From Selenomonadales bacterium (GTDB lineage: Bacteria > Bacillota > Negativicutes > Sporomusales > UBA7701), in the NCBI GenBank assembly GCA_029976065.1, contig JARKNV010000062.1:61317-125316 (forward strand): a DNA stretch of 64,000 bases. The letters run 5' to 3'. The notes beneath the pieces were generated by a model. That model did not search any database and was not told where the DNA came from. It saw only the letters and a list, made by a program, of their open reading frames with translations. This document shows, piece after piece, positions 1-7,532 of this stretch (its first letter is position 1; each line of letters opens with the position of its first letter). Position numbers and translations under genes: made by a program.

Positions 1-83
1 GTTAGCTATGTAAAAAGGAGGACTTGGATACTGTTGGTATAATATGTAATGTGTTGTGAGAGTTTTAGTGCGGAGGTGTCGAA

Positions 84-3080
84 ATGGCTTTTTGGGGCGG
101 ATTTATCGGGATAAATAAATATATGGATAGTCGTGTGAACGAGCTAACAGGTGCATGTAGAGATGCAATTGCCTTGTGGTCATTGTTTAAAGATTCTATT
201 CCCGAAATGTCCGCCAAATTGTTAATTAATGAGAATGCAACTACTCAAGCAGTATTAGATATGATGTCCGAGACATTGTCTTCCGCAGGTCCTGACGATA
301 CCGTTGTCGTATTCTTTTCTGGGCATGGAACACGAAATCACAGATTAGTAATGTATGATACACAGATAGAGCATCCGTTCGATACAACTATATCTATGGA
401 GAAAATTGCTGAGTTATTTAGGGAGTCGAACGCGAAACTCGTAATTCTGATTTTAGACTGTTGTTTTAGTGGGGGGGCGGCTGCGAAGGTATTTGATGAC
501 TTTCCCGTTGCGAAGGATGCCTTTTTTGATTGGAACAACATTGTGGGAACTGGAAGAGTAATCATAACAGCATCGAGTGCAAATGAACCTGCTTATGAAC
601 ATCCAGGGGTAGGACACGGTATACTTACCAAAGCCCTCCTTGATGTACTTCAATCCGAAGAGGTTGGAGTAAGTTTGGTAACTGCTATGGATAGCGTTTT
701 GATGCGAGTAAGGGCGGAATGTGGCAGATTAGGGCTTTCACAAACGCCTGAATTACTCGGACATTTTGAAGGTGGAGTATTCTTGCCTTCATTAAGACCA
801 GGCGAAAACTATTACAGGAATTTCCCCGAACTACAGATTATAAAAGTATCCAACAATATTACGGACTTACTCCAATATAATATTCCAGAATCAGTATGTG
901 ATTACTGGGGCACTCAGTTTGCAAACGGGCTTAATAACTTACAGGTTAAAGCAATCAATGAGCACGGGGTATTAAGTGGAAACTCACTTCTTGTTGTTGC
1001 GCCTACAAGTTCGGGAAAAACCTTTATAGGTGAGATGGCTTCGATTCGTGCCATTAAGCGGGGGAGAAAGGTCGTCTTTCTACTCCCTTATAAGGCTCTC
1101 GTCAATGAAAAATTCGAATATTTTTCCGAGCTATATGGCGAAAAGATAAACGTTCGCGTAATCCGATGCTCTGGGGACTATTATGACCAAACTGAGGATT
1201 TTGTTCGCGGGCGTTATGATTTAGCAGTCTTAACGTATGAAATGTTTTTGAATCTTGCAGTTTCTAGACCATCCGTGCTAACAAAAATAGGTTTGATAGT
1301 CCTTGATGAGGCACAGTTTATTACAGACCCCAATAGGGGCATTATTGTGGAACTTATACTTACCAACTTAATTGCTGCGCGTGAAAAAGAAATCAACCCA
1401 CAAATAATTGCACTTTCGGCTGTTATTGGTGATATCAATAATTTTCATATTTGGCTAGGATGTCAGGCATTAATTTCCAATGAACGCCCAGTTCCATTAA
1501 TTGAGGGAGTACTTGATAGAACTGGAGTTTATCAATATTTGGATGAGGATGGGCAAGAAAAAACTGCTCAACTTTTACCGGCGACAGCAATCCGTGTAAG
1601 GGGAGTAAAGCAAAGTTCTCAGGATGTTATTATTCCTCTTGTTGCAAAGCTGGTAGGGCAAGGAGAAACGGTAATCGTATTCAGAAATACACGGGGACTG
1701 GTCCAAGGATGCGCTAGATATTTGGCAAAAAATCTTGGTTTAGATGCCGCGACTGATGTTATTAGCAGACTTCCAGACCAAGATATAACAACGACATCTG
1801 AAGAATTGCAGGAATGCTTGCGTGGAGGGATTGGATTTCACTGTACGGATTTAGATAGGGATGAACGGCAAGCTGTCGAACAAGCTTTTCGTGCGTCCGA
1901 TAGTAAAGTTCGTGTTTTGGTAGCTACAACCACTATTGCCGCAGGTATCAATACCCCAGCCTCAACTGTGATTATTGCCGAACATGAGTTTATGGGTAGT
2001 GCAGTACAACCGTATACTGTCGCCGAATACAAAAATATGGCAGGGCGGGCAGGGAGACTGGGGTACAACGAAAAGGGCAAAGCTATTCTTTTGGCCGCAA
2101 CATATAGTGAACGTGATACATTGTTTAAAAAATATGTCGTAGGAAAGCTTGAGCCACTACGCTCTTCCTTTAATGTTTCAGAGATAGATACTTGGATTTT
2201 GAGACTTCTTGCTCAAGAAAAAGCTGTTCATCGAGATGATGTATTTCGTATTCTCGCCAATACTTATGGTGGGTTTTTACAAAGCCGTCTAGACCCGACT
2301 TGGCGAGAGAAAGTTGAAGCACATCTGCAAAAGCTGCTTCCGGCGATGCTCGAACTTAATTTGTTAGAGCAAGATGGGGAGATAATTCAGCTTTCACTTT
2401 TGGGACGTGCTTGTGGACAATCATCACTGTCCTTAAAATCGTCACTGCAATTAGTTGAATTATTATTAAGAGCATCTGCTGAAGACCTTACTCCCGAAAA
2501 GTTAATGGCACTAATGCAGGCATTACCAGAGGCGGACCAAGGATATACCCCTATTTTGAAGAAAGGCCGTTCCGAATCTGACCATGCATATAATTGTTCT
2601 AAATGCTTTGGCTCTGGTGTTATGCGAGAGTTACAGAGGAAAGCCCAATCAGAGTCGGATTATTTCGCAAGATGCAAGCGGGCTTTAATATTGTGGGATT
2701 GGATAAATGGCGTATCTATTGGGGGGCTAGAACGCAAATACACAGTTAATGATTATGCACGGACAAGGCGAGGGGATATTGGTAGATTTGCGGATTCTAC
2801 TCGCCACCACATGCATTCCGCACATCAGATTATGATTTTGACTCGTCCAGAAGATGCTCCTAGACAAGAAGAATATAATGTGTTATTGCAACGCTTGGAG
2901 TTTGGCATACCATTGGAAGCGCTTTTGTTACTCAAATTGCCTTTCACATTAAATCGTGGCCAATATCTTGCTTTGTTGGAACGAGGAATTCGAACGCCAG
3001 AAGACCTTAGGAAACAGGATGAGGATTGGCTTGTTAAATTTTTGGGTAAGCGAAAAGCTTACGTCTTAATGCAAAATTAG
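84..3080 (+). CDS. Caspase-like (peptidase C14) protease fused to Ski2/Hel308-like DExH helicase
   Basis: 998 aa ORF with RBS ggaggtg; caspase motifs FFSGHG and LDCCFSGG; helicase motifs APTSSGKT, LDEAQ, NMAGRAGR; HhH-like C-terminus. Confidence 0.9.
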   Translation: MAFWGGFIGINKYMDSRVNELTGACRDAIALWSLFKDSIPEMSAKLLINENATTQAVLDMMSETLSSAGPDDTVVVFFSGHGTRNHRLVMYDTQIEHPFDTTISMEKIAELFRESNAKLVILILDCCFSGGAAAKVFDDFPVAKDAFFDWNNIVGTGRVIITASSANEPAYEHPGVGHGILTKALLDVLQSEEVGVSLVTAMDSVLMRVRAECGRLGLSQTPELLGHFEGGVFLPSLRPGENYYRNFPELQIIKVSNNITDLLQYNIPESVCDYWGTQFANGLNNLQVKAINEHGVLSGNSLLVVAPTSSGKTFIGEMASIRAIKRGRKVVFLLPYKALVNEKFEYFSELYGEKINVRVIRCSGDYYDQTEDFVRGRYDLAVLTYEMFLNLAVSRPSVLTKIGLIVLDEAQFITDPNRGIIVELILTNLIAAREKEINPQIIALSAVIGDINNFHIWLGCQALISNERPVPLIEGVLDRTGVYQYLDEDGQEKTAQLLPATAIRVRGVKQSSQDVIIPLVAKLVGQGETVIVFRNTRGLVQGCARYLAKNLGLDAATDVISRLPDQDITTTSEELQECLRGGIGFHCTDLDRDERQAVEQAFRASDSKVRVLVATTTIAAGINTPASTVIIAEHEFMGSAVQPYTVAEYKNMAGRAGRLGYNEKGKAILLAATYSERDTLFKKYVVGKLEPLRSSFNVSEIDTWILRLLAQEKAVHRDDVFRILANTYGGFLQSRLDPTWREKVEAHLQKLLPAMLELNLLEQDGEIIQLSLLGRACGQSSLSLKSSLQLVELLLRASAEDLTPEKLMALMQALPEADQGYTPILKKGRSESDHAYNCSKCFGSGVMRELQRKAQSESDYFARCKRALILWDWINGVSIGGLERKYTVNDYARTRRGDIGRFADSTRHHMHSAHQIMILTRPEDAPRQEEYNVLLQRLEFGIPLEALLLLKLPFTLNRGQYLALLERGIRTPEDLRKQDEDWLVKFLGKRKAYVLMQN

Positions 3081-3264
3081 ATTTAGCAGTAACCGTTGCA
3101 AAGAACAGTATTTTATTGATTGTCCCAACATCCTAAAACATGTAGGAGGTATGGTCAGGAAGTTGTTCGTAAGAAGGAAGGGTTTTTCAAGGTTTTCTTA
3201 TCGACCAAGATTTTTCGCGCTTCCTAAGGCCTCCTAGGTGGTTAACTTTTTGTGTGGGGTGTGA

Positions 3265-3300
3265 CGCCGCTGGTCCCCGGTTCGAATCCCGTTGCCCAGT
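3265..3300 (+). other. tRNA 3'-end-like fragment (T-loop GGTTCGAATCCCG), possible att site
   Basis: ggttcgaatcccgttgcccagtc resembles a tRNA T-loop plus acceptor 3' strand, with no intact 5' half upstream. Confidence 0.45.
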
Positions 3301-3950: not shown

Positions 3951-5054
3951 ATGGGAGTAATTGAACTGGAGGGAGCTAATGTGCAAATAGATTTTCATCA
4001 TGGTGTTATGTATGTGCTGTCTCGTCTGGCAGGATTCAATACTGAAGAAGCAAACATCATATCGTATTGTTCTCAATATGTAGATGACGCAATAAATGGA
4101 GGTTTTATTAAGTTTAAAAATCATCCAATGTTCTACAGAATTTCGACTGCGCATGGAATGTTAGACACTCGAAACACCGATGAGCAGGCAAATCAACACT
4201 CCTGGTTGCCATTTCACTTTCTACCGGGGAACGAGGCGGGTAATTCGAGGGATTTAGGTTTTGTGGCTCGCTTGATATGTAGGCAAAACAGCGACTTAGC
4301 CAAAGAAATGGTTACTGAATGTATTAGCAAGAAAAATGATTATAACGGACTCCATCGTCTAGGCATTACTATGCACGTATATGCGGATACTTGGGCGCAT
4401 CAAGGATTTGCCGGCATCAAGCATGAAATCAACAAGGTTCAAAACCTTAGTGATGACTCAGGTAATGACTTAGTCGAGAAGATTATCGAGCCCTTGGAGG
4501 GCGCTGTAGACCACATCAAAAGTTTATTAATAGACAACTTTCCTTTAGGACACGGTGCCGCCTTATCTTGCCCTGACCAGCCTTATTTAATATGGGAATA
4601 CAAAAATCACTTTGGCGAGTATATTCCAGTAAACAATTTGATTCGGTTCATGGGAGCAGTAGATAACGTTTTTGTAGCTCTTCAACGCTACAAGTTAGGT
4701 GATGCTACGGCAGCGGTTCCTAGTATTCCTCAAGATATTCGTGCCAAAATGGAAGCATTGTTTAAAACCAACTATGACGATGTTGAATGGGCAAGAAACA
4801 GAGCTTGGCTAAATAAGATTGAGGAAAACTATTTCGGATTTGGGGCAGAGAAGGTACAGTATATCCCCAAAGGCCCAGGTTCGTGGAAACATAGTGCTTT
4901 GGGAACTACAAAGGAAAAGGATGATGCTGCAGAACTTTTTGAATTCAGGTCTGAGTTTTTGGATAGCGATTGGAAGAAATTTCATGAGTCAGCGCTTGAC
5001 CATTGGAAATATGTCATGTTTAAATTATTACCTAGCTATGGGATTATTCTTTAA
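3951..5054 (+). CDS. DUF6765-like protein (zinc-dependent phospholipase C/hydrolase-like)
   Basis: FHHGVMYVLSRLAGF, MHVYADTWAHQGFAG, HSWLPFHFLPG; His/Asp-rich metal-site-like motifs. Confidence 0.65.
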   Translation: MGVIELEGANVQIDFHHGVMYVLSRLAGFNTEEANIISYCSQYVDDAINGGFIKFKNHPMFYRISTAHGMLDTRNTDEQANQHSWLPFHFLPGNEAGNSRDLGFVARLICRQNSDLAKEMVTECISKKNDYNGLHRLGITMHVYADTWAHQGFAGIKHEINKVQNLSDDSGNDLVEKIIEPLEGAVDHIKSLLIDNFPLGHGAALSCPDQPYLIWEYKNHFGEYIPVNNLIRFMGAVDNVFVALQRYKLGDATAAVPSIPQDIRAKMEALFKTNYDDVEWARNRAWLNKIEENYFGFGAEKVQYIPKGPGSWKHSALGTTKEKDDAAELFEFRSEFLDSDWKKFHESALDHWKYVMFKLLPSYGIIL

Positions 5055-5236: not shown

Positions 5237-5617
5237 ATGAATATTTGGGAAGCGGATAAGTTACTGATATTTCTAGCCTTATTTATTCCTGGATTTATAA
5301 TAATCAAGGTTTATGATGTATTATTTCCTAATTCATCGCGTGACTTTTCAAAAGCTTGGTTTGATGCAGTCGCTTTTAGTTCCCTGCATTATGGTATAGC
5401 TTATATTTACCTTATGGTAATAAAGCAATATTTGCAGATTGTACCTACTGCATCAATAGTATTTTTATGGGTTGTCTTTATACCGGCATTATATCCCATT
5501 TTGTTCTATGGGATAGTAAAATTCAAATTCTTTAGTAGGTTTTTTAGGCATCCTATTCAGCGTCCGTGGGATTATTTCTTTTCAGAGGGAAAGAAGTACT
5601 GGCTATGGTCCATTTGA
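5237..5617 (+). pseudogene. DUF6338-like membrane protein, N-terminal part; frame interrupted at about 5605
   Basis: MNIWEADKLLIFLALFIPGFIIIKVYD...PIQRPWDYFFSEGKKYW, then the frame ends; C-terminal part continues in the -1 frame. Confidence 0.6.
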
Positions 5618-5862
5618 AAAATGGTGAGAAAGTTGCGGGTATGTATGATGAAGATTCATTCACGTCTTCATACCCTGAAGTCCCTGAAATACTAATAGAA
5701 GAGGTTTGGGCTATAAATGATAAGGACGAGCCGATTGAACCTATTCAACCCAGGCGAGGGGTTATTATCTTGGGGAGCGATATTAGTAGAGTAGAGTTTT
5801 ACATATGGGACGAAAGTAGCGAAAAAAAAGAGGAAGGAGGGAGTAGTAGTGAACAAACTTAA
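5600..5862 (+). pseudogene. DUF6338-like protein, C-terminal part in shifted frame
   Basis: AMVHLKNGEKVAGMYDEDSFTSSYPEVPEILIEEVW...GVIILGSDISRVEFY, continuous with the preceding ORF if one nt is restored. Confidence 0.6.
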
Positions 5863-6071: not shown

Positions 6072-6154
6072 ATCCTGGTAATCCTCCTAAAGTTGAACCC
6101 AAGTCTCCCAAATAAAAAGATAAAATAGAATATTGATAGTTGGAAGGGGATAAC

Positions 6155-7108
6155 TTGCGAAAGGCTCTTGTTGTAGGAATTAACTACTATGCGAACGGCG
6201 GGCCTCTGTTCGGCTGTGTAGTAGATGCTTGTGATGTAAAAAATGCACTGGAACGTAATGCGGATGGTACTTTGAATTTTGATGTACAAATAATGCTAGC
6301 TACGAGTGATAAAGATGCAGTATCAAAAGCACAGCTAAAAGAAAAGGTTAAGGCACTTTTTGCTGGAGATTCAGATATTGCTCTATTTTACTATTCGGGG
6401 CATGGATATATTGAAACAACCGGCGGTTACTTGGTTACATCTGAATGTCCATCCGGAGATGATGGCCTACCTTTGGCGGATTTGATGACTATTGCAAACG
6501 AATCAAAAGCAAAAAATAAAATTATTATTCTAGATAGTTGTAACGCTGGTATAGCTGGCGATTTGGCAATCAATAGTGCTTTTGCGCAAATCAGTGAGGG
6601 AATGACGATTTTAACTGCCTGTGGTAAAGAGCAATATGCTTCAGAGAGCAATGGACACGGTGTTTTTACCGCTTTACTTGTGGATGCTTTGCTTGGAGGC
6701 GCTGCCAATCTTATGGGAGACGTTACGCCAGGTAGTATTTATGCGCACATTGACCAATCTCTAGGTCCGTGGGAACAAAGACCTGTATTTAAGACTAATG
6801 TTAGAAACTTTATCTCTTTGCGCAAAAATTTTCCACCGATTTCTTTAAGTGATTTGAAAGAAATTGTGACCTTATTTGAAAACAGTTCGGATATTTTTGA
6901 ATTAAATCCAACCTTCGAGCCGACGGAAACATCATATTCTGAAGAAAATGGAATTAAGTTTAAAATACTGCAAAATTATGCAAGGGTAAATCTTGTCGTG
7001 CCTGTAGGAGAAGAACATATGTATTATGCTGCTTTAAATAGTAAGGGGTGTAAACTAACAGCGTTAGGCACTCACTATTGGAACTTGGTAAAGAAGGGCA
7101 GGATTTAG
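6155..7108 (+). CDS. Caspase-like (peptidase C14) protease, type IV Thoeris-like effector
   Basis: KALVVGINYY...FYYSGHGY...IILDSCNAG; TTG start after ggaagggg RBS; 34 nt upstream of the TIR-like gene. Confidence 0.85.
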   Translation: MRKALVVGINYYANGGPLFGCVVDACDVKNALERNADGTLNFDVQIMLATSDKDAVSKAQLKEKVKALFAGDSDIALFYYSGHGYIETTGGYLVTSECPSGDDGLPLADLMTIANESKAKNKIIILDSCNAGIAGDLAINSAFAQISEGMTILTACGKEQYASESNGHGVFTALLVDALLGGAANLMGDVTPGSIYAHIDQSLGPWEQRPVFKTNVRNFISLRKNFPPISLSDLKEIVTLFENSSDIFELNPTFEPTETSYSEENGIKFKILQNYARVNLVVPVGEEHMYYAALNSKGCKLTALGTHYWNLVKKGRI

Positions 7109-7142: not shown

Positions 7143-7532
7143 ATGGCGAAAACGAGAACTTTTATTAGCTTTGACTACGACAATGATTCTGACCTCAAAG
7201 TATTATTGGTTGGACAGGCAAAGAATACAGATTCCCCGTTTGAAATAACAGATATGTCTATTAAAGAGGCTATAGATACAAAGTGGAAAGAAAAAGCACG
7301 TACAAGAATTAAAGGCTGCGATGTTGTTATAGTAATTTGCGGGGAGAAGACGAACTCTGCGACTGGAGTTTCGGCAGAACTAAAGATTGCCCAGGAGGAA
7401 AAAGTACCATACTTTCTCTTATATGGTCGCTCTGATAAGGACTGTGTGAAACCTACCGCTGCTTTGTCAACTGATAAAATGTATAAGTGGACGTGGGATA
7501 ATCTTAAAAAGCTTATTGGTGGAGGAAGATAA
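7143..7532 (+). CDS. TIR-like (DUF1863/ThsB family) protein
   Basis: RTFISFDYDND...KARTRIKGCDVVIVICGEKTNSATGVSAELKIAQEEKVPYFLLYG; TIR-like beta strands and a candidate catalytic Glu in SAEL. Confidence 0.8.
   Translation: MAKTRTFISFDYDNDSDLKVLLVGQAKNTDSPFEITDMSIKEAIDTKWKEKARTRIKGCDVVIVICGEKTNSATGVSAELKIAQEEKVPYFLLYGRSDKDCVKPTAALSTDKMYKWTWDNLKKLIGGGR

Follow-up and report, generated by a model that had tools for sequence, protein, structure and literature searches.

Helicase-gated immunity, as known to date, mostly ends in a nuclease, while the triggers of known prokaryotic immune caspases are messengers, CRISPR or adaptors; the Hel308 family is, to our knowledge, described as absent from bacteria. 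In the Hachiman system, a nuclease effector is switched on by HamB, a DNA-damage-sensing Ski2-like DNA helicase described as functionally nearer to Hel308 than to the Ski2 RNA helicases (PMC12278908). Gated immune proteases have also been described, these being protease-fused Hachiman and Avs and the caspase-nuclease system Canu, and they include a MALT1-like caspase (PMC12799240). Caspases with attached helicases have already been tabulated in two surveys: one from 2012 puts the number of prokaryotic caspase homologues bearing helicase-type domains at 12 (PMC3501461), and one from 2021 records DEAD in three cyanobacterial orthocaspases and Helicase_C in three (PMC8283722), with no follow-up in the accessible parts of either. 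Our search of open full-text papers, together with part of the subscription literature and of bioRxiv, found no functional study of such a fusion. Moreover, PADLOC, Pfam and NCBIfam hold no dedicated model for it, in line with the original prediction, which knew of no named defence system with this single-protein architecture.

The window (the whole stretch of 64,000 nucleotides analysed) opens on a gene with an intact reading frame and no internal stop codon (Table 1), at which a scan for promoters and terminators gave matches at chance level only. Pfam, NCBIfam and AlphaFold2 agree with the original prediction that its single product joins an N-terminal C14/caspase part to a helicase. Here, Peptidase_C14 (residues 8-224, 5.7e-15), DEAD (residues 286-449, 1.8e-23) and Helicase_C (residues 587-660, 6e-11) all score above the curated Pfam cut-offs, and Helicase_dom4_arc (PF21280; residues 850-940, 3.7e-6) is barely above its own. 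The motifs FFSGHG (with His81), LDCCFSGG (with Cys127 as the second cysteine), DEAQ and MAGRAGR, all named beforehand, are present and family-conserved. While the description as a full Ski2/Hel308-like DExH helicase is thus sound as far as it goes, the helicase is specifically of the Hel308 type by NCBIfam and by structure, with Hel308-type models covering residues 260-997 (8.5e-91 and 8.8e-85). Since its scores of 305 and 285 bits fall far under the equivalog cut-offs of 887 and 1200, we regard it, on sequence grounds, as a relative of Hel308 and not an orthologue.

Table 1. Coordinates of the fusion gene, its predicted parts and the neighbouring TIR-caspase pair in the window.
Feature	Position	Strand	Basis or remark
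Caspase-Hel308 fusion gene, putatively stand-alone	84..3080	+	998 aa, ATG start; single ORF likewise in 84 aligned members
Shine-Dalgarno GGAGGTG, 5' of ATG	~72..78	+	Genome contig sequence, L004 6389-6395
Caspase (C14) domain, residues 1-235	84..788	+	Pfam PF00656; AF2 and Foldseek
Asp27, predicted S1 pocket	162..164	+	At least 97% conserved; HMM alignment to 4afr (MCA2 Asp95)
His81, catalytic (predicted)	324..326	+	84/84 conserved
Asp125-Cys126-Cys127; Cys127 catalytic (predicted)	456..464	+	Asp125 84/84, Cys127 83/84
Disordered loop 131-146 after catalytic Cys; candidate self-cleavage/activation loop	474..521	+	pLDDT and loop alignment; function inferred
Helicase RecA1 domain	939..1463	+	PF00270
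Helicase motif I APTSSGKT	999-1022	+	Motif conservation
Helicase DEAQ, residues 408-411	1305-1316	+	Motif conservation
Helicase RecA2 domain	1644..2093	+	PF00271
Helicase motif VI NMAGRAGRL (MAGRAGR = residues 652-658)	2034-2060	+	Motif conservation
Hel308 domains 3-5: winged-helix, ratchet helical bundle (PF21280), C-terminal helices	2094..3077	+	NCBIfam Hel308 alignment reaching residue 997; fold match 2va8/2zj8
Neighbouring caspase, type-IV-Thoeris-like pair, separate from fusion	6140..7108	+	
Neighbouring ThsB-type TIR gene, same pair	7143..7532	+	PF08937 1.1e-8

Where a lone protein had been implied, the fusion is actually a widespread conserved family. A genome scan with the single fusion sequence as query gave zero relatives, and an alignment-based scan (tblastn) gave 357, from which the best 80 were kept, the other 277 being in part helicase-only matches. 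Among the fetched loci, nearly all hold one frame of ~1000-1060 residues, two look split and several end at contig edges. In total, 84 full-length single-ORF members from ~15 phyla were aligned, with 35-54% identity to the window protein from end to end. As regards DISCRETENESS and rarity, a helicase-only profile gave 875-1237 bits for the family copies in 45 member genomes and found one additional copy, clipped by a contig end, at 823 bits. The next-best helicase, a separate 736-residue Hel308-type gene of the archaeal member bin, reached 290 bits, and by these sequence scores (875-1237 versus at most 290 bits) the family is discrete from other helicases.

AlphaFold2, supplied with 42 family members, gave one well-packed model of the whole chain (pLDDT 88.2, pTM 0.87), whose top PDB matches were the Hel308/Hjm structures 2va8, 2zj8 and 2p6r (target-normalised TM-score of 0.81-0.86), followed by the helicase domain of DNA polymerase theta. 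The five-domain Hel308 fold, ratchet domain included, is present by the NCBIfam alignment, PF21280 and this structure match. Such a fold argues for a DNA motor, with a predicted 3'-5' DNA unwinding activity. The proposed helix-hairpin-helix tail is weak in Pfam (HHH_5, E 0.075), though the model does have a helical tail, which takes the place of the C-terminal helical domain of Hel308.

When the N-terminal 245 residues were modelled separately (pLDDT 89.8), Foldseek ranked the MALT1 paracaspase first (TM ~0.7) and then CED-3, caspases, metacaspases and the bacterial caspase homologue GSU0716. The predicted structure thus has the caspase fold that the original prediction expected, a true one with a His-Cys dyad, from which protease activity is predicted. 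Residues 131-146 form the sole very-low-confidence stretch of the chain (pLDDT <50 at 131-139 and 141-146), and include basic residues that are mostly conserved in the family alignment. The activation cut of caspases falls in the loop after the catalytic cysteine, and as residues 131-146 lie at this position, self-cleavage is predicted there. In addition, Asp27, aligned with Asp95 of the metacaspase MCA2, and Asp125, two residues ahead of Cys127, are each kept in at least 97% of the 84 members. The S1 pocket of Arg/Lys-specific metacaspases is made up of these two positions, from which cleavage after Arg or Lys is predicted.

Compared with the described systems, the fusion protein has HamB as its chief relative in PADLOC (4e-37), and like Hachiman it couples a Ski2-like helicase to an effector. 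However, this effector is a protease in cis on the same chain, the N-terminus has a caspase fold and not the HamA-binding N-terminal helical domain of HamB, and the helicase resembles Hel308 far more than HamB (PDB phmmer, 1.8e-63 versus 1.6e-19). Moreover, a HamA/DUF1837 nuclease was not found among the scanned neighbours in the window, and the family loci have no universal neighbour. With no HamA found and a caspase fold at the N-terminus, we rejected an assignment to Hachiman; the PADLOC model PDC-M23B (1.8e-35) was likewise set aside, its best match being confined to the helicase part. The entire helicase fold and motifs are shared with archaeal Hel308/Hjm, but the fusion carries a caspase and is mostly bacterial, mobile and patchy. 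Type IV Thoeris (TIR and caspase) also has a caspase as immune effector, yet there the TIR is a separate protein and the signal is a nucleotide, whereas here a DNA helicase is joined to the caspase; this assignment was rejected too, as an adjacent TIR pair is rare and has its own caspase. Canu and protease-fused Hachiman and Avs resemble the fusion in having an infection-gated protease in immunity, but Canu includes a pro-nuclease partner as well as Ig-like domains, and we rejected it because the fusion is without a constant partner and a Pfam scan found no Ig domain in the protein.

The gene had been placed in an accessory island beside another caspase-based system, and indeed a caspase and a ThsB-type TIR gene lie downstream in a defence-rich setting, while an IS110-type transposase and a 995-residue SIR2 protein, and farther off a tyrosine integrase and a resolvase, are found to its left. 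A TIR-caspase pair also flanks the fusion on alphaproteobacterial plasmids from Bosea and Rhodopseudomonas (L017 and L019; TIR 43-67% and caspase 44-51% identical to the window pair), and is seen only in the window and these two of ~93 loci. Besides this pair, the neighbours on plasmids include Piwi, SAVED, N6-methylase/XamI restriction-modification, ABC-three-component (ABC-3C), ubiquitin-like multiubiquitin/ThiF/DUF6527, Fic and CHAT-TPR genes. With PADLOC (E ≤1e-10), 139 genes within ~4 kb of a family gene matched 259 models, whereas 118 control genes, drawn from 8-kb regions in other parts of the contigs carrying the family, matched 24, mostly UvrD-type (GajB) and cysteine-desulfurase-type; as PADLOC models are redundant, these totals should be read as a contrast, not as a rate per gene. 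The family thus sits in defence islands, a setting that speaks for a defence function through guilt by association, and the surroundings of its members are accessory and not housekeeping. There is no constant operon partner across the family loci, and the recurring neighbours are clade-limited: DUF2158 in 6 loci at -1, AbiE-like genes in 7 on the upstream side, and Qat-like genes in 7 on the downstream side, the last assigned by eye from sequence. Nor does any gene for a protease substrate accompany the fusion. Without a universal partner gene, the fusion most likely acts alone.

Members occur in phyla that include Bacillota, Acidobacteriota, Nitrospirota, Cyanobacteriota, Bacteroidota, Pseudomonadota, Armatimonadota, Verrucomicrobiota, Gemmatimonadota, Chloroflexota, Deinococcota, Planctomycetota, Myxococcota and candidate phyla, with one Methanosaeta bin as archaeal source. 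Even so, their presence is patchy: the window's own genome is the only carrier among 199 genomes of its phylum, the fusion is absent from 99 close-to-moderate relatives (from the window's genus up to its class), and among 274 genomes around Verticiella it occurs in that genome only, this set also having one helicase without an N-terminal extension (264 bits). The tree has two deep branches with phyla intermixed in both, and the window protein clusters, though weakly (support 80), with copies from cyanobacteria, gemmatimonads and bacteroidetes. Patchy presence and a phylum-mixed tree together point to an accessory, horizontally moving gene. A viral family was ruled out, since viral databases yielded one full-length copy (L101, from IMG/VR), and phage records and predicted viral structures gave matches at the helicase or caspase level only and no fusion. 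In the sampled genomes, we saw no Hel308-like helicase with another N-terminal effector, and hence no effector swapping, the search turning up just plain Ski2/Mtr4-type or Hel308-like helicases with no recognised added effector. Two IMG/VR contigs (L103 2544-5180 and L104 6851-9487) encode 878-residue Hel308-like helicases that have no caspase and carry an additional C-terminal region of ~150 residues, each with a serine recombinase upstream.

This mobility bears on whether the protein acts against plasmids or competing elements, or in plasmid maintenance, by killing or arresting cells that gain rival DNA or lose the element. We consider such a role unlikely, if the foremost of the alternatives: 13 plasmid records carry the fusion at 80% coverage or more, several of them conjugative, and with integrases, transposases and resolvases close to the fusion loci, plasmids or integrated elements could favour maintenance; yet many members lie on chromosomes or large contigs, antiphage models predominate among the neighbours, and an antitoxin-like constant partner is absent. 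Taken together, its presence in ~15 phyla and in defence-rich mobile regions makes the fusion a probable, as yet uncharacterised, single-gene antiviral system.

The way conservation is divided along the chain concerns which half is the effector. His81, Lys312 (motif I), Asp408/Glu409 (DE) and GRAGR are each invariant in all 84 members, and Cys127 is kept in all except L051, which has serine. Because conservation peaks in the helicase core (column means of 0.70-0.71, versus 0.55-0.62 in the caspase), the helicase itself might unwind or disrupt phage replication intermediates, with the caspase as a regulator that releases or destroys it. We hold this arrangement to be improbable, given that the caspase active site equals the helicase motifs in invariance and that known immune caspases act as effectors or initiators (PMC12799240). 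Caspase and helicase distances correlate at r = 0.90 when 62 dereplicated members are compared (in the Mantel test, 0 of 2000 reached this value), the pattern that a single ancient fusion would leave if its parts had stayed together, and a constant single-ORF fusion with co-evolving halves argues that the two function jointly. As separate observations, the Cys-to-Ser change of L051 and a Gly80-to-Cys change in L090, which is without a Pfam C14 match, may mark inactive-protease variants and weigh against the antiphage reading given below.

Still less probable, in our estimate, is a non-immune role in DNA repair or stress, with a bacterial Hel308 and a DNA-damage-tuned protease forming an SOS-like regulator, for although archaeal and human Hel308/HELQ work at damaged forks and HamB too responds to DNA damage (PMC12278908), the extreme patchiness, horizontal spread and island setting ill suit a housekeeping repair factor. 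Misassembly or a chance fusion, conceivable for a metagenome-derived draft genome (87.9% complete, 6.0% contamination), is refuted by the identical architecture in dozens of unrelated genomes, complete plasmids included.

We therefore favour, as the likely function, a stand-alone antiphage protein of the abortive-infection type in which the Hel308-type motor would sense DNA and the fused caspase would execute. In the sequence of events that we infer, the motor would survey DNA, bind structures that arise when phages replicate or DNA is damaged (ssDNA-dsDNA junctions, 3' ssDNA), hydrolyse ATP and change shape, and this change would relieve or oligomerise the fused caspase. Once activated, the caspase may cleave itself in the post-Cys loop and would then cut at least one cellular or phage protein, probably after Arg or Lys, so that growth would stop before phage release and the cell would be arrested or killed. 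By analogy, this would be a Hachiman-like working mode with the helicase sensor gating a protease in cis. That the helicase gates the caspase directly, as a one-gene immune system and a bacterial branch of Hel308, is a narrower proposal toward which we lean slightly. What would be new here, beyond the earlier tabulation, is helicase-gated immunity with the caspase effector in the same chain.

In animals, RIG-I/MDA5 or DNA sensors connect a nucleic-acid helicase sensor to protease or death signalling; their architecture is not homologous, the fusion being one bacterial polypeptide whose helicase is of the DNA type. If our reading is correct, bacteria would have a nucleic-acid-sensing, protease-executed suicide switch, the Hel308 branch an immune role in bacteria, and animal helicase-to-caspase signalling a simple parallel. 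Since one chain holds both the DNA motor and the death-type protease, a single purified protein could serve for the study of sensing, switching and killing.

A few further details of the island were noticed. The SIR2 protein (L003 12561-15548, minus strand) lies ~4.5 kb upstream of the fusion gene, and its residues 1-240 resemble ThsA/Dsr1, the remainder having no family match. Shortly downstream of the fusion gene is a tRNA-like 3' half (3262-3298, plus strand; GGTTCGAATCC), for which no intact matching copy was found nearby and which is possibly an old attachment site. Also downstream, within the island, are a DUF6765 gene (3951-5054, plus strand; 5.8e-96) and a DUF6338 coding region (5237-5862, plus strand), the latter split across two overlapping frames by a frameshift or a programmed frameshift.
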